Assembly (NCBI GenBank): GCA_025201845.1
Contig: MU604167.1
Location: forward strand, 1 to 14,283
Origin: Martensiomyces pterosporus
Lineage: Eukaryota; Kickxellomycota; Kickxellomycetes; Kickxellales; Kickxellaceae
DNA length: 14,283 nucleotides
Direction: 5' to 3'
The position numbers were made by a program, and so were the translations under genes. Shown here one piece after another: positions 1,102 to 14,283 of the stretch (positions are counted from its first letter, which is position 1; each line of letters begins with the position of its first letter). The notes below the pieces were generated by a model. The model made no database searches, was not told where the DNA came from, and saw only the letters and a list, made by a program, of their open reading frames with translations.

Positions 1102-2934
1102 ATGCAGGACGTACCAGCGAAGCGCTCAAATGATGGCGCTGCAGACTCATCCGTGTCTGTAACCAAAAAGCGCGCAGTGTCACAGCTTCAGGAAGCCAAA
1201 GCGCTCGAGCACCTACCGTGTGCCAAAATGTACGAGCGGTCTTATATGCACCGCGATATAGTGGACCGCGTATGCGTGACGCAGACGAACTTTGTCATTA
1301 CGACGTCAGTAGATGGGCACGTAAAGTTCTGGAAAAAGCGCGATAAGGGGATCGAATTCGTAAAACACTTCCGAGCGCACTTACAGGCGATCATAGCACA
1401 AGCTCAATCAATTGACGGACAAATGTTTGCCACTGCCTCAACGGACAAGCTAATCAAGGTGTTTGACGTGGTAAACTTTGACATGTTTGGCATCATTTCT
1501 GCGCAGTGCGTCCCGTCGGCCTTGTGCTGGATTAAGGACCCGTTGGACCAGTCCATGTGCATTGCGGTGGCTGACTCGGAAAGCCCAGCAATTTATATAT
1601 TTGATCCGTACGGGAGCCCAGAGCCCAAACGGACCATCAGGGGTATTCATCGCCAGCCAGTCAGGTTAATGGCGTATAACCCGGTGGTTGAATGCATTGT
1701 GTCGGTAGATAGGGGCGGGATGGTTGAGTACTGGACAATCGAGGAGCCACACGGTCTTCCATCGCTGGTGGATTTCCAGTTGAAGTCGCAGACGGATTTA
1801 TACGAGTTCAAAAAGAACAAGTGCGTGCCAAACAGCCTCGTATTCTCGGCCGATTTTGAGCTGTTTGCATGCACGAGCACCGACGACTCGATCGTTCGAG
1901 TTTTTAAGTTCTCCACAGGGAAGCTGTATCGCAAGTACGATGAGTCAGTCGCTGCGACTAGCGCAATTCAAAGCATTGGCGAAAACGGAGCGTTTAAACT
2001 GGATGACATGGAATTTGGGCGTCGAATGGCGGTGGAGAACGAGGCAATCAAGTCGCCTGCTGGTGCAGGCACCAACGCTGTATTTGACAATGGCGGCAGG
2101 TTCCTGATCTTCTCTTCGTTGCTCGGAATCAAAATAGTCAACCTAGCAACTAACAAGGTCGTCCGCGTGCTGGGAAAGCCAGAGCCACATCGGTTCATAA
2201 ACATCGCTCTATTCCAGGGCTCGTTGGAGCAGACAACTTCTAGAATTGATCTTGCTGCTTCGCTGAACCCGGGCGCACAAAGGAATATCGAGGATCCGAC
2301 GCTCTTTTGTACCGCATTCAAAAAGAACCGCTTCTACATGTTTACTCGCGACGAGCCGGACCACAGCTCGCAAGATAATACCCGCGATGTTTTCAACGAA
2401 AAGCCAACGCGCGAGGAAGCGTCGCTAGCAGTTGAGCCTGCAAAGAAACAAGTGGCCAAGTCGGCGGTTATTCGAACAACATTGGGCGACATCCGTGTAA
2501 AGCTGTTCCCCGAGTGTGCGCCAAAGGCCGTCACTAACTTTGCCGGTCACTCGAAAAATGGCTATTACAACAGCGTCATATTCCACCGTGTCATCAAGCG
2601 GTTTATGATCCAGACTGGTGACCCGCTGGGCGATGGAACTGGCGGAGAGTCGATTTGGGGAAAATCGTTTGAAGACGAGTTCACGCCAAAGCTGCGCCAT
2701 GATCAGCCTTATACTGTCAGCATGGCCAATGCGGGTCCAGGAACCAACGGGTCGCAGTTCTTTATTACCACCGTAGAATCCGCGCCATGGCTCGACGATA
2801 AGCACACTGTTTTCGGCCGTGTTACGGCTGGAATGGATGTCGTTCATCTGATCGAGTCTGCAAAAACCGACAAGCAAGACAAGCCTTTCGATGACATTAG
2901 CATCCTAAACATCCAGATCCAGTACGATGAGTGA
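1102..2934 (+). CDS. PPWD1: PPWD1-type WD40-repeat cyclophilin (peptidyl-prolyl isomerase)
   Basis: This single-exon gene encodes 610 aa, close to the animal PPWD1 (about 650 aa). Residues 1-40 are a basic/acidic leader. Residues about 40-420 are WD40 repeats (for example [10 protein letters not shown] near residue 66). Residues about 454-610 are a complete cyclophilin domain. The catalytic signature is present: FHRVI with the key Arg, [24 protein letters not shown], and [10 protein letters not shown] with the Trp and His of the cyclosporin-binding pocket. It is therefore likely an active isomerase. In other species PPWD1 is a nuclear protein of late (C-type) spliceosomes, and that role is inferred here. 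The start at 1102 was chosen because it opens the conserved protein. An in-frame ATG at 1066 adds 12 residues, and the frame stays open back to 868 inside the inverted repeat. The 3' end converges with the NNF1-like gene, with 234 bp between stops. Confidence 0.94.
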
Positions 2935-3168: not shown

Positions 3169-3717
3169 TCAGGCCTTTGTAGTTTTTACCTTGTTGATTA
3201 ACGCCATAGCTTCTTCTAGCTGTTTCTGTTCTGTGGTCAGTGACGCACGTTCCTTGTTCAGCTGGGCGATGGATTGCGCGTTCTCCTCCTTCAATAGTGC
3301 CAGGTTTGCCTTCAGACGTTCCAACTCAGCCCTCTTAATAGCCACCGAGCGATTGCGATTGGCAGCCTCCGGAGAGTATTCAGGAATAGGCTGTGCGTCT
3401 GGTGCCACTTTGCGTTCAGTCGCATCACTAACAAGCCTATCGAGCCCTGCGAGCTTGTTAGCCATATCGTACTGCATAAGAATGGCCTGAAAATCGGCGT
3501 TGGCAGAGTTTCTCAGGTAGGAGCTTATTTGATCATGACTATCGGCCAGCTTTCCCGGGATCTCTTGCGCGAGGTCGGGAAATATCTCCTTCAGGTCATC
3601 TAGCTTGAACGTGTCAACGACTGATGAGAGCGAGCGGTCGAGAACCGACAGCAGTTTGTGGTAGCGCACCCCATCTGAGGCATGCTTGTCGGTCATTTCT
3701 GCGTCGTTGCTTGCCAT
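3169..3717 (-). CDS. NNF1: NNF1/PMF1-like kinetochore (MIND/Mis12 complex) subunit
   Basis: This is a 182-aa single-exon protein. The first ~110 residues follow the Nnf1/PMF1 pattern: RYHKLLSVLDRSL near residue 18, a FPDL turn near 46, and the hallmark helix in which FQAILMQYDMANKLAGLDRL is followed by an acidic/Arg end (about residues 76-102). Residues about 120-178 are a charged heptad-rich coiled coil (ELERLKANLALLKEEN). In the family, this subunit forms a heterotetramer with Mis12, Dsn1 and Nsl1 that links centromeric chromatin to Ndc80, and it acts at kinetochores. The length fits fungal members (about 180-210 aa). It is divergent from the defensin-like gene (470 bp between the starts) and convergent with PPWD1. 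The assignment rests on the pattern of one domain, so another small coiled-coil protein cannot be fully excluded. Confidence 0.8.
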   Translation of the reverse strand: MASNDAEMTDKHASDGVRYHKLLSVLDRSLSSVVDTFKLDDLKEIFPDLAQEIPGKLADSHDQISSYLRNSANADFQAILMQYDMANKLAGLDRLVSDATERKVAPDAQPIPEYSPEAANRNRSVAIKRAELERLKANLALLKEENAQSIAQLNKERASLTTEQKQLEEAMALINKVKTTKA

Positions 3718-3868
3718 TTTTGTCTGCCCAAATTAGATTTGCACAAAATGAAGACAATAAGGGTAGTGCTAAAATCCGTGCTCAAGGACTGCCATACAAA
3801 GCAAAGAAGAAAGCAGCAGCAACGCCGAGTAGTTTGTTTACTATAACCGTGCTGCGACCACTGCACCT

Positions 3869-3890
3869 CACGTGAATCAATCTATTGATT
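3869..3890. promoter_or_regulatory. E-box CACGTG next to a short palindrome
   Basis: CACGTG at 3869-3874 is the bHLH/Cbf1-type site. It is followed immediately by AATCAAT-CT-ATTGATT (3875-3890), with 7-bp inverted arms. It sits about 150 bp upstream of the NNF1-like start. In yeasts Cbf1 sites serve both centromeres and promoters; any role here is inference. Confidence 0.35.
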
Positions 3891-4044
3891 AAATCCTGGC
3901 CAGCCCAGGCGCAACAGCACCATCATTGTTTGGGGAGGGCTGAATCGCGACTCACTACTATAATAGGGGCTTCCATACAACAATGCAAAGCTAAGAAAGA
4001 GGACGTACATGTTGCTGAGTTGGGCTAGATCGGGCGTGCTGGAG

Positions 4045-4059
4045 TGCTGGTATCCAGCA
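4045..4059. promoter_or_regulatory. Perfect inverted repeat upstream of a TATA box
   Basis: TGCTGG-TAT-CCAGCA has 6-bp arms around a 3-bp spacer and ends 16 bp upstream of the TATA box of the defensin-like gene. The position and symmetry suit a dimeric regulator site. No specific factor is recognised. Confidence 0.35.
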
Positions 4060-4075
4060 TAGCCTTGCGCACGGG

Positions 4076-4083
4076 TATATAAG
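4076..4083 (+). promoter_or_regulatory. TATA box for the defensin-like gene
   Basis: TATATAAG lies 104 bp before the ATG at 4188. Initiation about 30 bp downstream would give a leader of roughly 70-80 nt. It is the strongest TATA box in the intergenic region and points at the small ORF, not at the Tat-SF1 gene 650 bp away. Confidence 0.65.
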
Positions 4084-4187
4084 GACTGCCGCCTCCATCC
4101 TGCAGTTGGCCTGCAGCAGCATCAGCAGTCTTTCCACCTAGCTTGTCAGCTCAAAAATCTTAACGCCTATTTTTGTTTGCTACCGTC

Positions 4188-4328
4188 ATGCCGCTTCACC
4201 TCGTCTACCTTGCCGCTTTCATCCAGAGTTGCCTGGCAGTCTCTTGCCTATTTGGGGATCTTGGTTGCAAGATCTCCTGTGGGAGTTCGATGGGTATCTG
4301 CAGAGACGCTATTTGCCACTGCGGCTGA
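4188..4328 (+). CDS. Small secreted six-cysteine defensin-like peptide
   Basis: This is a 46-codon ORF. Residues 1-19 look like a signal peptide: a short start MPLH, the hydrophobic core LVYLAAFIQSCLAV, and an A-V-S cleavage site before Cys20. The predicted mature peptide is only 27 residues (20-46) with six cysteines at 20, 27, 31, 38, 43 and 45, that is C-x6-C-x3-C-x6-C-x4-C-x-C. This contains the CxxxC and CxC pairs that define CS-alpha-beta defensins and a GxC-x4-C gamma-core (G36-I-C38...C43), and it ends in Gly. The short first loop resembles ancient-invertebrate-type defensins. The third-to-fourth cysteine spacing (6) is shorter than usual, so the fold is not certain. A purine at -3, a TATA box 104 bp upstream and an independent intergenic position support a real gene. 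By family analogy it would be an extracellular antimicrobial or signalling peptide; that is inference. Chance occurrence in a 46-codon ORF cannot be excluded from sequence alone. Confidence 0.65.
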   Translation: MPLHLVYLAAFIQSCLAVSCLFGDLGCKISCGSSMGICRDAICHCG

Positions 4329-4734
4329 GTCTGGACATTTTTCGGCTAATCGATCTGGCAAAACTACAGCGGGATAGACGGTTGCTCTGATGGGCGCCCC
4401 TCTTCACTGCTTATGCTCTGTGTCTGCAACGCTCATCTGATCTTTGAACTTTTGAGATATGCACCAGCTAGTTTTTTTCTTTGTATCTTGCGAATGAACC
4501 AGAATGTAGCCAATTCAAATAAGCCTTTTAGCTTGGAGGACTGCTGAAGAATGACACCAGGCATCACAAAATGTGTGGCACGCGCCCAAAATATGGTACA
4601 CTCTATTTAGGGGAAATTAAGGCAACGTCACCACCAGCAGAATAATAGGAAAATCCACTCAGCCGCTATCCCGCTTTTCAGTTGCCTTGTACCGGTACTA
4701 TTCATTCAGATTACGTTTAAAAAGCTGTAGAAAT
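4329..4734. other. Intergenic: 3' region of the small gene and Tat-SF1 promoter
   Basis: These 406 bp have no supported gene. A T8 run lies near 4471-4478, and A/T-rich stretches near 4520 could serve 3' end formation of the small gene. The region before 4735 has no clear TATA box. Confidence 0.5.
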
Positions 4735-7059
4735 ATGTCGCAAACGGACGAGGTCGCTGCTACGCTCACGTTTCCAAAGCCAAGCGAGTTCGATGCGGAC
4801 AAGCGCGTGCAGCTGATCGAAGAAACTGGCCATTACATTTTCACTGATCCCAATGACGGCATGGAATACGAGTATGACGAGAACAAAGGGGCGTGGTTTC
4901 CAATGTGGAACGAGGCGCTTATCGAGCAGCAGCAATCAGCGTACGGTGACGGCGATGAGGAACAAGCTGAAGACGCTGCAGCGTCCACTGGAGCAAAGCG
5001 AAAGCCGAAAGACACCGTGCATCAGGGCCACCCAAAACGAGAAAATACAAGCGTGTATATTTCTGGGCTGCCGCTAGACACTACCGAGGAGGAAGTTGCA
5101 GAGTACTTTTCTCAGTGCGGAGCGATAATGCCTGATATATCGACAAGTAAGTGAAAATAGCACACAGGTGCAATATTGCGCTGTGTATTCGTTTCTGAGA
5201 GGGACGTTGACAGACGACAACAGAACCCCGGATGCGGTTACGTAACCTGCGCTGCAAGCATCGAATGACGGCTGCTTATATATACCCCTCTATGCACACC
5301 CATCCTGTGTAGATAAGCCACGTGTAAGGTTGTACCGCGATAACAGTGGGAGGCCCAAGGGGGATGGGCTTGTTACTTACTTTAAGGCGCCGTCGGTGCA
5401 GCTAGCACTTGACATTTTAGACGACTCGCAATTTAGGACGACGGAGCCTACACGCATCAGCGTTCAAAAGGTACATGGGCACCATTTGTATGTCTGCCAT
5501 GATGATGCACATATTTTTGTCAATTCTGCAGACAGCGCGATTCACTAAAGGCTTCCTGTCTGGCTTGCATTCTAGGCGGTGTTTGAAGAAAAGGATAAAC
5601 GGGGGAGTGACAAGGCGGAGACATCCAAGCGATCTCGCGTCGACCCAAAGCTTATCCAAAGGCGGCTGAACCAACTGGAAAAGTAAGCTTTTCTGCACTG
5701 AGCAAAACGTACAAGCGCTGGATCCGCTTGCACATCCTTGCAGCACAAGTGTGCATCATAGCTGCTGGTGTCGCTCCAGCAACTTTTGCGACACATCTAA
5801 TCTCCACATGCATTCACCGCTGTTCTATATATATATGCGTTTTGTAGGCAGCTCGATTGGTTCGAGGGAGGCGGCGAGATTGCAGAGCGGTACAAGCGAA
5901 CGGTGATTCTCAAGCACATGTTTACTCTGCAAGAGCTCGAGGTGAGTGGTGCGCAAACACACCCCCAGTGGACTGCAGCACACGGTCGAATGTGCACCTG
6001 AATGTGTGCTTTACTGATACAAAGCATACGCAACAGGCGTCTTTTTTCGCCTTATTTGTACTGCTCTCGGGTATAGGAGGATGTCACGCTGCTGCTCGAC
6101 TTGACAGAGGATGTGCGTGAGGAGTGTGAGAAGCTTGGGGCAGTCTCAAGTGTAAAGATATATGATGTACGTGGTGTCTAAATGCGTGGGGTATCTCTGC
6201 TTATGCCGCTTATGTGCATTGGGGAGGTAAGGTGGGTGCGCTGACAAGCATATGTGACCATTGTTGCTATTTTGTATGTAGATGTCAGAGGAAGGCGTGA
6301 TTTCGGTAAAGTTCAAGGACGAGCTGGCAGCGAGGGCATGCGTCAAGGTAAGACTAGCATTTTCCTCTTTTGCCTTAGTTCTTGGGCATACTCCGCGAGA
6401 CTTTGGCGCCCTAACATGACGGACAAAAATGGAACCAGGGGAGGGGCGGATCAGATATTGGTAAACGCCATTGCTCACGGATTTAGGTGGGCTTGTATGC
6501 TTCATGGTGTACAAGCAGCAGCAGCCTTGTTGCTACTGCCCAGTGCCAGCATCCAAGGCTGGAGTAGCGGTTTCAATCCCTCCCCACTCTCGCAACCGCC
6601 GAGCATTGCTGCTCAGTAGCGATATTAATTTCCTCCCCTCCCCCAAAAGGTGGATATGAGATGCGGTGGATAAAGCAAATGGCCCATTGTGCGAAAACCC
6701 AATTGGGAGCTACTATTTTTACCATGGCCTTGTTTTTTACTGGCGGCATACAGAACATGAACCCGGGCTACAACCCAGCATAATATCTTTATTAAGCAGT
6801 AAACAAAGGAATTGCTTGGCGTGGCACTTCTGCTTACTGTGCGTTGTAGGCAATGAACGGGCGATTCTTTGCAGGACAGCAGATTGAAGCATCAATCTAT
6901 GACGGACACACGCGGTACAAGTCATCGGCAAAGAATGCATCTGTAGCGGCAGCAAGCGGCAGCGGCGAGCAAGGCACTGCCGGTAACGAACAGAACGATG
7001 ATGACGAGGAGGCAAAGCGGATGGAGAAATACTCTGAGTGGCTGGATTCAGGGAACTAA
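4735..7059 (+). CDS. CUS2: Tat-SF1/Cus2-like U2 snRNP splicing factor, seven exons
   Basis: The exons, deduced from splice signals and reading frame, are 4735-5146, 5313-5470, 5576-5682, 5848-5941, 6077-6166, 6282-6347 and 6850-7059. Donors are GTAAGT, GTACAT, GTAAGC, GTGAGT, GTACGT and GTAAGA; all six acceptors are TAG. The product is 378 aa. The N-terminus has the family's aromatic segment (GHYIFTDPNDGMEYEYD...AWFPMW, residues about 32-61). RRM1 spans about 105-190 (VYISGL and KGDGLVTY). Residues 243-335 form a second RRM of U2AF-homology (UHM) type: FMTLQ-like entry after RTVILKHMF, an acidic helix, and the R-x-F motif at 314-316. In the family the UHM binds SF3b1 and the protein helps U2 snRNP adopt its active form in the nucleus. 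The tail is shorter than human Tat-SF1 (755 aa) and longer than yeast Cus2 (285). Retention of intron 1 would stop translation almost at once. An upstream in-frame ATG at 4687 is less likely as the start. Confidence 0.92.
6348..6849 (+). other. Unusually long last intron of the Tat-SF1 gene
   Basis: This intron is 502 bp against 105-166 bp for the other five. It begins GTAAGA and ends GTTGTAG. Translating across the join gives the uninterrupted RRM (ACVK then AMNGRFF), so no further exon is needed. I saw no convincing snoRNA box pair, tRNA or coding segment inside it. Confidence 0.8.
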
Positions 7060-8413: not shown

Positions 8414-11400
8414 ATGACTACAGCCGCCGTCAGACCAAACACAGGCGTAAGTACACAGCAGTGCTGCCTTTTTGCGCACTGGCTCCTTAAGAAACTCAAG
8501 CTCCTGGGGCCCGAGGGCTTTTCCTGTCTTGAAGACACGGTTGCTTCCTTGTTCCTGGGTTCGCTTACACGCGTAGCTCATGGGCTACCGCGCGGAAGGA
8601 GCCGGCGATTGTACAAAGCTTGCACCAGTTTCTTCTTTTCCCAATGCTTGTTTTGGAAAGCTGCAGAGCATGGAGTGGTGAACCGCTCTCAAATAGCCAG
8701 GCAAAAAGTCTACATACTATGCTATTCTTAACCCCTTCCTTCCACATTCAGAAACATATCAAAAATAGGGGCTGCCATCCAGCCAACCACTGCTCCTTAT
8801 TCAACAAGCACAACAACGACAACAACAGCAACAGCAGCCCTTTCTCTCCTTTCTTTTTTGCTCCTCCCAGCACATTTAATTTTCGTTCTATTATTGTCTT
8901 GTGTATGTACTGATCCTCTCCATTCGTGACATTCGCGCCGCACTATTGTGAGGAAAACGCCCAGCGCTTGGCTTTCGCGCCTTTCGTGCTCTTTTGCTGT
9001 TCAAATTATGCGATAGCTGCTTTCATTTGGCACCCCCCTTTATGCAGAACTGTGCTGTGCTTTGCGTTTTTGCCTCTCTCCAGGCCCTGAGAGGACCGTG
9101 CCCCTTACATTTTCCTTATCCACTACTCAGTGACTCCGCGAAGCTCTCAAAGGCTGAGGTGGTTTTTAGTTACCCCACAAACACAGACACTGCACACACC
9201 ACGCACCCCACACATGTCTTTACTTAGCCTCGCCCCATCCTCTCCCCACACCACATCACACTTCACCCCTCTCTGGTGCTCTCACTCTTAATTGCCCATT
9301 CACACGCTCTCTGGCAAACCTCGTATGCGATTCCTCCGCTAATACCAACCTTTCGACCTGCTACATATTGATTTATTCTGCATTCTCGCTTCCATATTTA
9401 CATGTTTACCTTTCTTGAGTTAATAGTATCATCATCGCACAGAGCCCCCAGAGATTGTCGCTGCGAATCACATGCAAAGGCGTCGCTCGCTAGCCCCCAC
9501 GCAACTCGCACATATTCCAGACCACACTTCTTCCAACGCTGCAGATCCGCATCAACTGGCTCGCTCGGCCAGTTCTGGCAATAGACGTGTATCCTCCTAT
9601 TCCAGCAAACCATCAGCTCAAAGACACCAGCAGCAGCAGCAACAGCAGCAGCAGCGAAACAATACACGAGCCAGCACTCCTCCTGCACCACAACAACAAC
9701 CAACAGCAACAGCTGCAGCTGCAGCCAACAATAACAGCAATATGTCGGCACAGCAGCAACCGCGTCCAGGGGGCCACCACAACTCTGTCTCGCGTCGTGA
9801 TATCGGCAGCCGTCACCCAGGCTCGCGCGAACGCAGAGAGCAGCGCATTGGCGACTTTATCATAAAGCAAACACTGGGTAAGGGTACTTTTAGCAAGGTT
9901 TGCATGGCTGAGCACCGCAACACAAAGCAAAAGTTCGCCTTAAAGTTTATCAAGCCCAAATCCCCACAGGGTGGCAGCACCGATAAGCACAACATCCGCG
10001 TCGAGCGCGAGATCAAGCTGCTCTCCTTGCTCTACCACCCAAACATCGTTCGCCTATATGATGTTGTGCAAACACCAAAGTTCACCATGATTGTAATGGA
10101 GCACAACAGCGGTGGCGAGCTGCTTCAGTATATTCGTAAGCGCGGACGGCTGCACGAGAACGACGCACGAGGCTTCTTCCGCCAGATTGTCAGCGCCATG
10201 GACTACACGCACAGAAATTGCATCATCCACCGCGACCTGAAGCTGGAGAACGTCATGCTTGACAACGAGAACCGGATACGCATCATCGACTATGGCTTTG
10301 CAAACACCTTTGAGTGGGACAAACAGCTCGACACGTTCTGCGGTTCGCCATTTTATGCTGCACCCGAGATGGTCAACGGCATCAAATACACTGGCCCAGA
10401 AGTTGACATTTGGAGCATGGGCGTCATTCTGTTCTTTATGCTCTGCGGTCGCACGCCATTTGAGGGCGAGAACCTCAAGGAAATCTACGACAAGATTTCG
10501 CGTGGAAAGTTCAGCATGCCTCCGTTCCTCAGCAAAGAAGCACAAAGCCTTTTGCAGATGATGCTTACGGTCAATCCCAAACAACGCATTTCCATGAAAG
10601 GAATCGTCGACCACACATGGACAAACAAGGACTGCGATCACCCAGTCGACAACCACTTGCCCTCAAGACCCTCGGTTGTTTTGCAGCCCAACGAATACGC
10701 GCTTCAGAAGATGCGCATCTACAAGTACGAGATTCCTGATGTCATCAACGCCCTGGCGCATGCCGATTCAGCACTGACCCCGATGGTGTGCATTTACCAC
10801 CTTGTCGAAGAGTCGCGTCGCCGCAAGGCTACTAGAAATGCTCGCAGGAGCCATGCAAATCAGCTGGGTAGCAGCGTCAACGGCAATGGTTCGACTACCG
10901 ATGTCAGTTCTGCGAACGGCACTTCGCTTGCACCTGTCGCTACCTCTGGCGGTGGTAGTAATGCACCGGCAGTTGTCACTAACGGCGCCAATATCGATAA
11001 CTTGCGGCAGGCCCCTCGCTCGCGCCACAGCTATGCCCCAGGCTATGTTGGCAGCGACAGCCACAGTCCCACCTCGAAAACCGCACATGCGCACGGCAAC
11101 ACTGAAGCTCTACAGCAGGCTCAGATGGGCAGTGGTGCACCGCATGCTCACGCCAACGCCCAACTGCAGATACCGCAGACCCACTACTTGGCAGGAAAGG
11201 AATCGGAAATCGCAGCTGCTCTCGAGTCGCCCTCATTCGGTGCTAGTCAATATGAGCCGCCTAGACTGCGTAAAGGCAGCACTGCCAGCGGCCAGCTCTC
11301 TGTCGATAGCTCAATCAACCTCGAAGCATCCTCGCCGTTCCTTAGAGACGACGATAAGCGGTCGAGCCGCTCGTCGCGGTTCTTTGCACGTGTACGCAAG

Positions 11401-12465
11401 TCGATGCCGTTCTTGAAGACAAGGCGGTCGCAGGTGCTGGACGACATCCCGCCTATGGAGCAATCACAGGTGGCTGAGGGCAATAGGAACCGCGTCAGCT
11501 TCTTCCAGGCTCCATTCCGCCGCTTTAGCGCTGTGCCTTCGGCTGTGTCGCTGAACAACCCGTCGAACCGTCGAGTTCCCAGCTACTATCCTCCCTCTCA
11601 GCCCCCACCACCGCCAATCAACCAGCAACCCTCGCATCAGCCCCAGCAGCATAATGCCAATGCCAGCCGTCCGGCGACTGCACACGCTGTACTGCGGCCC
11701 ACGTCGTCATCAGACCAGCAGCAACACAGCAATGGCAATGGACAGCGGAGACATACAGATTTCGGACTGGCAAAGCAACAGCAACAGACCCCACGGCTAA
11801 TGACGGCCGATGGCGTGAGCCACAACAGAAAATCGGAACCTCTTCAAGAGGCGCCACTGGGCGTCAATGGCAACACCAATCTCAATGGCAATGGCGGTAA
11901 CCTCGGCAATAACAGGCGGTCCCAGCGCCCTCTGTCTGTCATCTCTAACCGGCAGTTAACGCCTCTGCGCCTGCACCCGACACACAGCTTCCAGAGCTCG
12001 CACAACTCGACACCATTCACTCAGCAAAATGCAGGCGCGCAGCTACCACCTGCACTCACTTCTCGTGCCTCTACGCCTGCCGGTGCTGGCTCTGGAAATT
12101 CACCAGGCAACAAGTCCAGCGGTGGCATACGTGGCATTTTCAACCTGCGCTGCACGATGCTCGGGCCGCTGGAAGAGATCCACTACAAGATCCAGCATGC
12201 AATGAAGAGCAGGCTGGTGACATACAGCCAAAAATCCAACTTTTGGTACGAGTGCTGGTACGACCCAAACAACTCGTCAGGAGGAATATCGAATGCTGAT
12301 AAGGAAAAGTGCATGCAGTTCGATGTTCAAATCGAGGTCGTCCAGGGACAGCTCCACACGATCAGGTTTAAGCGCGTCCATGGAAATTGGTGGGCTTATA
12401 AGAAACTGACTGTGACAATCGTAGATGAATTGCAGAGCAACCAGCAGCCCATGTCCCCATCCTGA
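8414..12465 (+). CDS. KIN1: KIN1/PAR-1/MARK-family serine/threonine kinase
   Basis: The second exon encodes the body of the protein. The proposed structure is 8414-8446 (MTTAAVRPNTG, ATG in a good context AAAG-ATG) joined to 9427-12465, giving 1023 aa. The donor is GTAAGT, and the TAG acceptor at 9424-9426 keeps frame and matches the TAG acceptors of the neighbouring gene. Acceptors ending at 9444 or 9453 also keep frame, and a start at 9472 (997 aa) is the fallback. In the 1023-aa numbering the N-terminus is Q/N/S-rich with polyQ. The kinase domain is about 155-409: LGKGTFSKV loop, FALKF Lys184, HRDLKLEN at 279, DYG in place of DFG at 299-301, activation-loop T in DTFCGSPFYAAPE, and YTGPEVDIWSMG. 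A long disordered Q/N/S/P-rich linker follows, and a KA1 membrane-binding domain ends the protein (about 912-1016). In the family these kinases act at the cell cortex in polarity and exocytosis. Confidence 0.88.
8447..9426 (+). other. Predicted 980-bp first intron of the kinase gene
   Basis: The GTAAGT donor follows an 11-codon exon in phase 0. TAG at 9424-9426 is the in-frame stop that would otherwise close the kinase frame upstream, and it is also a usable acceptor. The content is pyrimidine-rich on the plus strand, with no gene recognised inside. Confidence 0.55.
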
Positions 12466-12684: not shown

Positions 12685-13629
12685 TTAGGCCAGCTCGAGG
12701 CATCCGTAGTGGAACGCCCTGCTCGGCTCATTTGGTTTCATATCAATGCCTCTCCACAGCGGTGGCAAGTACTGTGAGGTACGTGGGTCCATCTGCAGAT
12801 GTCTATTACAGACACTACAGGTAGCTGAGAACAAGTTGTCGAAGAGACTGAACCACTGCACGAGTTTCGACAGTCGATGCTCAACGGAAAACCCAGCAAT
12901 AGAGAACCAGATAATGTTGGTATCATATGCGATACGATTAAACACGTGGAACCTTGAGAAGGGGCCTGCCTCATCCGTGGAGAAGATATGAATCGCATTG
13001 ACTTCGTACTCCTTCGTCGCCCCCGCCATCTGCTTCAAGCTGATGGACATCTGAATAATCGTCGGGATACGCACAACGAGGAGGAAGGTCCGACTGGACA
13101 CTGCGTATTTCCCAATAAACAATTGCGGGTACTTAGCCTTAAGCTCCGCCATTTGCGCCTCCAGTGCCTCCTCCGACAGGCCTTCGCCAAACTCGCCAAT
13201 CTGCAGACGCATGGCTGATGTATCCAGCTCCCTGATTGAGCTATCAACCACCTCGCTGGTTTCTCTCACACTGCCCCTCTCAGTCATCAACCTCACATAA
13301 GGCGAATACTCGTCCAAAAGTTCCTGGACTTTGGGCGAAATGAGCTTCTGTCGCGGCTTTTTTTCCAGCCTAACTAGGGCCCTTTGCAGTTTGGAAATTG
13401 TATCAACCATCCCACGCATCGTCTCCAAGGTGTACGAGATATCGGTGTGTGCAGCTTCGGTCACAGACTTGTCCTTGCGGATGGTGCTGACGCCCGCGAG
13501 GTCCCCAAATGCCTTGTAGATGGAGGAGTGGGTGTCGTGTGCTTTTTCCACTAACTTGTCGATACTCGCCATTACTTCATATGCCTCAGCGAGCACCTGC
13601 TCACAGCCTTTCGTCGATTCTGTTGCCAT
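12685..13629 (-). CDS. MED27: Mediator complex subunit 27
   Basis: This is a single-exon protein of 314 aa, near the animal MED27 (about 311 aa). The N-terminal half is helical and coiled-coil-like (residues about 10-180). The C-terminus carries the family's zinc-binding motif: C271-x2-C274, then LPPLWRG, then AFHYGC with H307 and C310. This CxxC...PPxWR...FHxxC arrangement is characteristic of MED27. In the family it is a tail/upper-tail module subunit that connects activators to RNA polymerase II in the nucleus. The start at 13629 was chosen because upstream residues are low-complexity (TC-microsatellite derived) and then run into the inverted repeat. The frame nevertheless stays open to an ATG at 13854 in the repeat. 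It is convergent with the kinase gene. Confidence 0.92.
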   Translation of the reverse strand: MATESTKGCEQVLAEAYEVMASIDKLVEKAHDTHSSIYKAFGDLAGVSTIRKDKSVTEAAHTDISYTLETMRGMVDTISKLQRALVRLEKKPRQKLISPKVQELLDEYSPYVRLMTERGSVRETSEVVDSSIRELDTSAMRLQIGEFGEGLSEEALEAQMAELKAKYPQLFIGKYAVSSRTFLLVVRIPTIIQMSISLKQMAGATKEYEVNAIHIFSTDEAGPFSRFHVFNRIAYDTNIIWFSIAGFSVEHRLSKLVQWFSLFDNLFSATCSVCNRHLQMDPRTSQYLPPLWRGIDMKPNEPSRAFHYGCLELA

Positions 13630-13696
13630 GCTATGTCCCAATTGATATTGTGAAGGCTCAAGGGTATGTGGAATGATCGTAGAATGCGCGTGCGTG

Positions 13697-14283
13697 TGAG
13701 ACAGTGTGTGAGAGAGAGAGAGAGAGAACTGATTTATTTGCCCCCTTGGTGGGGTCAGTTGGCATGAGCAGTTATAATTGTGGGATTCAGCTATTGAACG
13801 AGGGGTGGGGTTCAAAGACGCGCCTCCTTCGCATCGCCATATGGCTGTTGCCATGCATTAAGATCTCGATGAGACGGAACCGCCTGTGCCAAGTGCCGCC
13901 ACGATGCGGTGCGCATTTAGGGCGAATTATGTTTCATGTCTGCTACATGATCTTGGCCATCGAGGGACTAGGTCTGGTGGTGCTCCCTCTCGGGGGCTGC
14001 TTCAGACGCACTCTTCGGAACGGCACTATTTGCAGGGGGTGCAGATATTGTCTTTCTTTGTTAGAGGTCCGACTGCTTGGAGGGGGATGATGGCTTTTTT
14101 TTTTGGGCAGCATGGACGATATCGGAACTGAGAATGGCTCAAGTGGGAGAAAGGGAGCAATAGATTGCGGTATTCAGCAAGACGGTAAGAGTGGAGGGGA
14201 CCTCAGCATCCGATATGTTTGTTTTGATTTGGTGGTGTATCCTTCGACGCCTGGCTTTTTTGTCGCTTTTATACCGGTTCAGC
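13697..14283 (-). repeat. Right arm of the long inverted repeat (cut by window end)
   Basis: Bases 13728-14283 match 439-994 in reverse complement without a difference. A (GA)9 tract at 13710-13727 then makes this arm about 14 bp longer, and 13697-13712 matches 996-1011 at 15 of 16 positions. The arm ends about 70 bp upstream of the MED27 ATG and continues beyond the window for an unknown distance. It carries the mirror copies of the TATA-like elements (14266-14273 and 13772-13777). No transposase, integrase or known element was recognised. Confidence 0.95.
13710..13727. repeat. (GA)9 microsatellite at the inner edge of the repeat arm
   Basis: Nine GA units lie between the identical core and the degenerate end of the right arm. 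The left arm has almost none of this tract, so it is the main visible difference between the two copies. Confidence 0.9.

Follow-up and report, generated by a model that had tools for sequence, protein, structure and literature searches.

The window analyzed here is one entire contig of the soil fungus Martensiomyces pterosporus (MU604167.1, 14,283 bases), taken from an assembly of 17.4 Mb in 216 contigs. On its plus strand, an open reading frame (ORF) at 4188–4328 encodes a candidate defensin-like precursor of 46 codons followed by TGA, with the translation MPLHLVYLAAFIQSCLAVSCLFGDLGCKISCGSSMGICRDAICHCG. The ORF is read as intronless, and no propeptide is apparent. It lies in a 1,017-base intergenic interval (3718–4734) between two housekeeping genes, NNF1 on the minus strand and an RRM gene on the plus strand. 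Six cysteines counted from C20 (C20, C27, C31, C38, C43, and C45) are separated by x6, x3, x6, x4, and x1 residues, and the fourth sits in a GxC motif (G36-I37-C38-x4-C43). An additional cysteine, C15, falls within the presumed signal peptide. An initial annotation made from the letters of the DNA had described this ORF, its cysteine spacing, and the GxC-x4-C element in what it took to be a fungal genome. The same translation and motif were obtained from 4188–4328, and the NNF1 product encoded next to the ORF is 99% identical across 97% to M. pterosporus GQ54DRAFT_300436 (Kickxellales, Kickxellomycotina).

The sequence upstream of the ORF resembles a promoter. A TATA box (TATATAAGG, 4076–4084, plus strand) ends 104 bases before the ATG, and the base at −3 is a G; the TATA box and a purine at −3 had both been reported by the initial annotation. 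In 200 kb of this genome, a TATAWAR motif occurs 50–140 bases upstream of 13 of the 707 ORFs that have 35–90 codons and of 1 of the 48 that have at least 300. Transcription begins some 20–30 bases beyond a TATA box, which would place the transcript start near 4105. An in-frame stop is located at 4161 and there is no ATG in 4100–4187, so 4188 is the first ATG past the presumed start. Codon bias gave no usable signal for the ORF because the neighboring genes themselves fail the codon-bias test. A scan for bacterial-type promoters and terminators, which is not relevant here, returned matches at chance level.

The presumed signal peptide spans residues 1–19 (4188–4244, plus strand), or residues 1–17 ending at 4238. 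The amino terminus contains a hydrophobic 8-mer with a mean Kyte-Doolittle value of 2.7 that is free of Asp, Glu, Lys, and Arg, and a home-made (−3,−1) rule places cleavage sites after A17 or S19. Residues 3–21 are helical in the precursor model. These features agree with the secretory-looking start proposed earlier, and the precursor would be secreted. The mature peptide (4239–4325, plus strand) would have 27–29 residues, and its net charge (K+R−D−E) is zero. The calculated average masses of the reduced 27- and 29-residue forms are 2,750.3 and 2,936.5 Da, and loss of six hydrogens on oxidation would bring them to about 2,744.3 and 2,930.5 Da.

AlphaFold2 was used with the single sequence to predict the structure, and residues 17–46 had a mean pLDDT of 78.2 (70.1–78.2 across the five models). 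In the precursor model, a helix formed by residues 24–31 (4257–4280, plus strand) carries the C-x3-C pair (C27, C31); in the mature model the helix covers residues 24–30, and C31 lies one residue past its end. Both models have a β-hairpin with a first strand at residues 36–39 (4293–4304, plus strand) that contains C38 of the GxC motif and a second strand at residues 42–45 (4311–4322, plus strand) that contains the C-x-C pair (C43, C45). The second and third cysteines are thus predicted on the helix and the fifth and sixth on the last hairpin strand, in a prediction for which no control ORF was folded. The loop lengths x6, x3, x6, x4, and x1 fit the cis-defensin framework CX(2,18)CX(3)CX(2,12)CX(4,17)CXC as given in PMC11561630. 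A structure-neighbor search, which covers chains of 30 residues or more, finds resemblance to solved CS-alpha-beta members, and the closest neighbors are mostly potassium-channel peptides. The cysteine framework, the predicted helix and hairpin, and the structural matches back the CS-alpha-beta architecture suggested by the initial annotation. The structure prediction that it had named returned the expected topology; the disulfide pairing would follow from the framework.

No relative of the peptide was detected. Among proteins of ~25–80 and ~63–200 residues in a set of 5.8 billion, none shares three 5-residue words with it, and a word-based search of this kind is weak for divergent short peptides. 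This lack of a match, in a set that does include the NNF1 protein encoded on the contig, fits the earlier description of the ORF as unannotated. Because the search needs three shared words, the peptide is an orphan only in the sense that no close relative is annotated. A Pfam hmmscan assigned the peptide to no family, and PDB sequences contained no match to it. Searches of the M. pterosporus genome with the precursor, the mature part, and the DNA returned the ORF locus only, making it single copy. The Defensin_2 (PF01097), Gamma-thionin (PF00304), and Toxin_2 (PF00451) models were also run against this genome at E ≤ 10. All of their matches are sub-threshold and lie elsewhere than the ORF, and of 14 control genomes, 3, 4, and 5 likewise give matches to these models that stay under the cut-off. 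The sub-threshold matches that were inspected (L002, L003, L033–L036, and L038–L039) do not coincide with any six-cysteine ORF that bears a signal peptide. Fifteen stretches in a viral-contig collection fit a pattern and none was confirmed. In a prokaryote collection (84,980 species, each represented by a single genome, where close relatives only are detectable) none of 159 pattern-fitting stretches was confirmed, and a phage collection contained no match to the peptide.

The frequency of such ORFs by chance was estimated by a strict scan of all six frames for ORFs of 30–130 residues that satisfy the cis-defensin expression of PMC11561630 and also have a hydrophobic amino terminus, a permitted cleavage site, and a mature part of at most 60 residues that contains exactly six cysteines. 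The signal-peptide rule in these scans is home-made, and it accepts the A17 site. The strict scan returned one match in the window, ORF 4188–4328 alone, and none in twenty stretches of this genome, each 10 kb long (200,000 bases, of which 30,847 are N). Order-4 Markov sequence totaling 3 Gb yielded 17 matches, equivalent to 0.00008 per window and 0.098 per genome. Two of the 17 contain GxC and none has a TATA box at 50–140 bases; the strict rule plus GxC gives 0.012 expected per genome. Other loop ranges yielded 5 matches in 160 Mb and 22 in 1.6 Gb, and six of the latter have GxC and none a TATA box.

These results lead us to conclude, at a probability of roughly 0.62 for gene, secretion, and fold jointly, that 4188–4328 represents a real gene, single copy and without introns, which is served by a TATA promoter of its own and encodes a secreted CS-alpha-beta peptide. 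Several observations weigh against this conclusion. A lax rule, which asks for the expression in the secreted part with cysteine number and mature length unlimited, gave 226 matches in 2 Gb, or ~2 per genome, so a chance match somewhere in the genome is possible on pattern alone, and striking cases are the ones that a first-stage reader picks. Because testing came after the features had been noticed, the chance figures make the case look somewhat stronger than it is. No homologue or paralogue was recovered by the searches, and none of the three Pfam models matches at the locus. The zero net charge and the absence of the plectasin lipid II histidine weaken any claim of antimicrobial activity. 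The absence of relatives and the lax rate are what would be seen if 4188–4328 were a chance reading frame in intergenic DNA, with the cysteine order, hydrophobic start, and TATA box coinciding by accident. We consider this unlikely: the strict rates are far below one per genome with or without GxC, the TATA box is missing from all 17 simulated ORFs, and the single-sequence models, run with no control ORF, converge on a compact fold of the right topology. The chance figures taken together, despite the post hoc choice of features, favor a real gene.

The position of the ORF, on the same strand as the RRM gene and 406 bases before its start, would also suit an upstream ORF or leader that acts in cis within a long 5′ leader of that gene and not as a peptide. 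Such a role calls for neither a secretory start nor a six-cysteine fold, and an RRM mRNA starting from the TATA box would hold eight further ATGs in 4329–4734, which is unusual for an mRNA leader. A leader function is therefore highly improbable.

On the preferred reading of a secreted CS-alpha-beta peptide, the signal peptide would route the precursor into the secretory pathway, where signal peptidase would cleave after A17 or S19. Cleavage at either site would yield the product directly, so no propeptide step would be needed. The 27–29-residue product is predicted to pack its helix on the β-hairpin, and the framework suggests disulfides C20–C38, C27–C43, and C31–C45 (1–4/2–5/3–6). The most likely use of the peptide would then be extracellular, as a competition or growth-modulating factor directed at other soil microbes, a role that, taken alone, we advance tentatively and at somewhat less than even odds. 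Residue S30 precedes the third cysteine, a position that we take to be that of His-18 in plectasin. The plectasin contacts with lipid II are the N-terminus, Phe-2, Gly-3, Cys-4, His-18, and Cys-37 (as described in PMC8877149), and Val-Ser precedes the first cysteine here; a competition factor with serine in place of the histidine would not use these contacts in full. Antimicrobial peptides are mostly cationic according to PMC8877149, and negatively charged fungal defensin-like peptides are tabulated in PMC4165938 (for example Abisin1, −3.8). Since the net charge is zero, a competition factor of this kind would have to act by binding a specific target and not through electrostatic disruption of membranes. 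M. pterosporus is described in PMC10478498 as a prominent maker of the anti-oomycete lindolins, whose presence in soil was established there for two or more of the three Kickxellales species tested, and this production makes chemical competition plausible for Kickxellales.

A real secreted CS-alpha-beta peptide could instead have a non-antimicrobial job, either in regulating or signaling the growth of the fungus itself or as an ion-channel ligand against grazers. This alternative differs from the preferred reading in role only and overlaps with it; we regard it as possible but doubtful. It is consistent with the neutral charge and with PMC5234102, which states that antimicrobial activity might have been lost in most of the fungal defensin-like peptides of Zymoseptoria and that some classical-type members regulate fungal growth. 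The nearest structural neighbors, mostly potassium-channel peptides, point in the same direction for a channel ligand, although a common fold demonstrates no function. The KCXN motif, which PMC5116183 links to channel toxicity in peptides with a short n-loop, is absent (the corresponding sequence is GICRD), so a channel-type pore block is unlikely. As to origin, one could propose that this single-copy, neutral, propeptide-free peptide is an orphan, near-minimal CS-alpha-beta fold born de novo and convergently from the NNF1–RRM intergenic DNA in the Martensiomyces lineage rather than by defensin descent, but we judge this improbable.

The flanking NNF1 gene (3169–3717, minus strand; Pfam Nnf1, E = 1.4e-14) presumably has a kinetochore role. 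Its 29 remaining matches, some of them partial, have 56–72% identity, and 28 of them carry the names Coemansia (26), Kickxella (1), or Linderina (1). The database model of NNF1 (179 residues) terminates in ...INKIAG and the open frame in ...INKVKTTKA (region 3169–3200), which suggests either a final intron or an incorrectly placed end of the model. The first exon of the other flanking gene (4735–5154, plus strand) matches RRM_1 (E = 5.2e-5); the initial annotation labeled it CUS2, and the evidence reaches RRM only. Farther out are a WD40-cyclophilin gene (1102–2934, plus strand), a KA1 kinase gene (9472–12465, plus strand), and a Med27-like gene (scanned as 12685–13626, minus strand) with a likely first ATG at 13629. 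At 8414–8731, ~0.7 kb ahead of the kinase ORF, a long leader rich in pyrimidines contains an ATG-initiated ORF of 105 residues, which could represent an upstream ORF or a first exon. ARAGORN called a tRNA-Val (AAC) at 50–125 on the minus strand; Rfam at the gathering threshold found nothing in the whole window and did not confirm it.

An inverted repeat of 572 bases, 99% identical between its copies, is located near one contig end (439–1010) and at the other end (13712–14283). The dispersed family of which it is a member has 19 matches genome-wide, both window copies included. The repeat opens GCTGAACCGGTATAAAAG, and an AATAAA occurs close to its far end; it might be a solo LTR or a comparable element that supplies a promoter and polyadenylation signal of its own. 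The long WD40-cyclophilin ORF extends back into the repeat (868–1101), and its first 42 residues are identical to those of the opposite-strand ORF 12685–13854 (13630–13854). Gene models from these ATGs would therefore share an element-derived amino terminus, and the true starts are probably at 1102 and 13629.

If expressed, the Martensiomyces peptide would be the first CS-alpha-beta defensin-like peptide found for Kickxellomycotina within the open-licence literature (5.39 million papers) searched by title and start of abstract. That search, with most subscription journals outside its scope, returned no defensin of Kickxellomycotina, and none of this group appears among the matches listed for 'fungal defensin' or 'defensin-like'. 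Expression would also widen the known fungal range to a lineage of hardly explored chemistry and contribute a scaffold of very small size to the CS-alpha-beta class.

Scorpion alpha-KTx peptides (BeKm-1, kaliotoxin, tamapin, and scyllatoxin) are like the Martensiomyces peptide in fold only; they come from an unrelated organism, and the peptide has neither their KCXN motif nor a Toxin_2 match at its locus. Scorpion peptides of 28–29 residues exist, so the Martensiomyces peptide would not be the shortest of its kind. The initial annotation had placed it among the shortest, and this part of the claim is supported by comparison with the 30–41-residue chains listed as structural neighbors and with the 33–60 residues of the fungal tables in PMC4165938. 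Bacterial class I cis-defensins, described in PMC11561630 as having a short n-loop and an N-terminal tail of 1–4 residues, share an expression that fits the Martensiomyces peptide, whose n-loop has six residues and whose tail has 0–2. The latter is encoded by a eukaryotic gene, and the prokaryote search, able to find close relatives only, gave no relative. The tabulated fungal defensin-like peptides come from Ascomycota, Basidiomycota, Mucorales, Mortierella, and Rhizophagus, with no Kickxellomycotina in Tables 1 and 2 of PMC4165938. As described in PMC4165938 and PMC5234102, these peptides (plectasin, micasin, and eurocin; fDEF1–8) have in common the C...CX3C...C...CX1C framework, a helix plus hairpin, and a signal peptide, which is presumed here; propeptides are missing from some of the families and introns from some of the genes, as read for 4188–4328. 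The Martensiomyces peptide is neutral like some of these peptides, and although no sequence match to them was found, plectasin variants appear among its structural matches.
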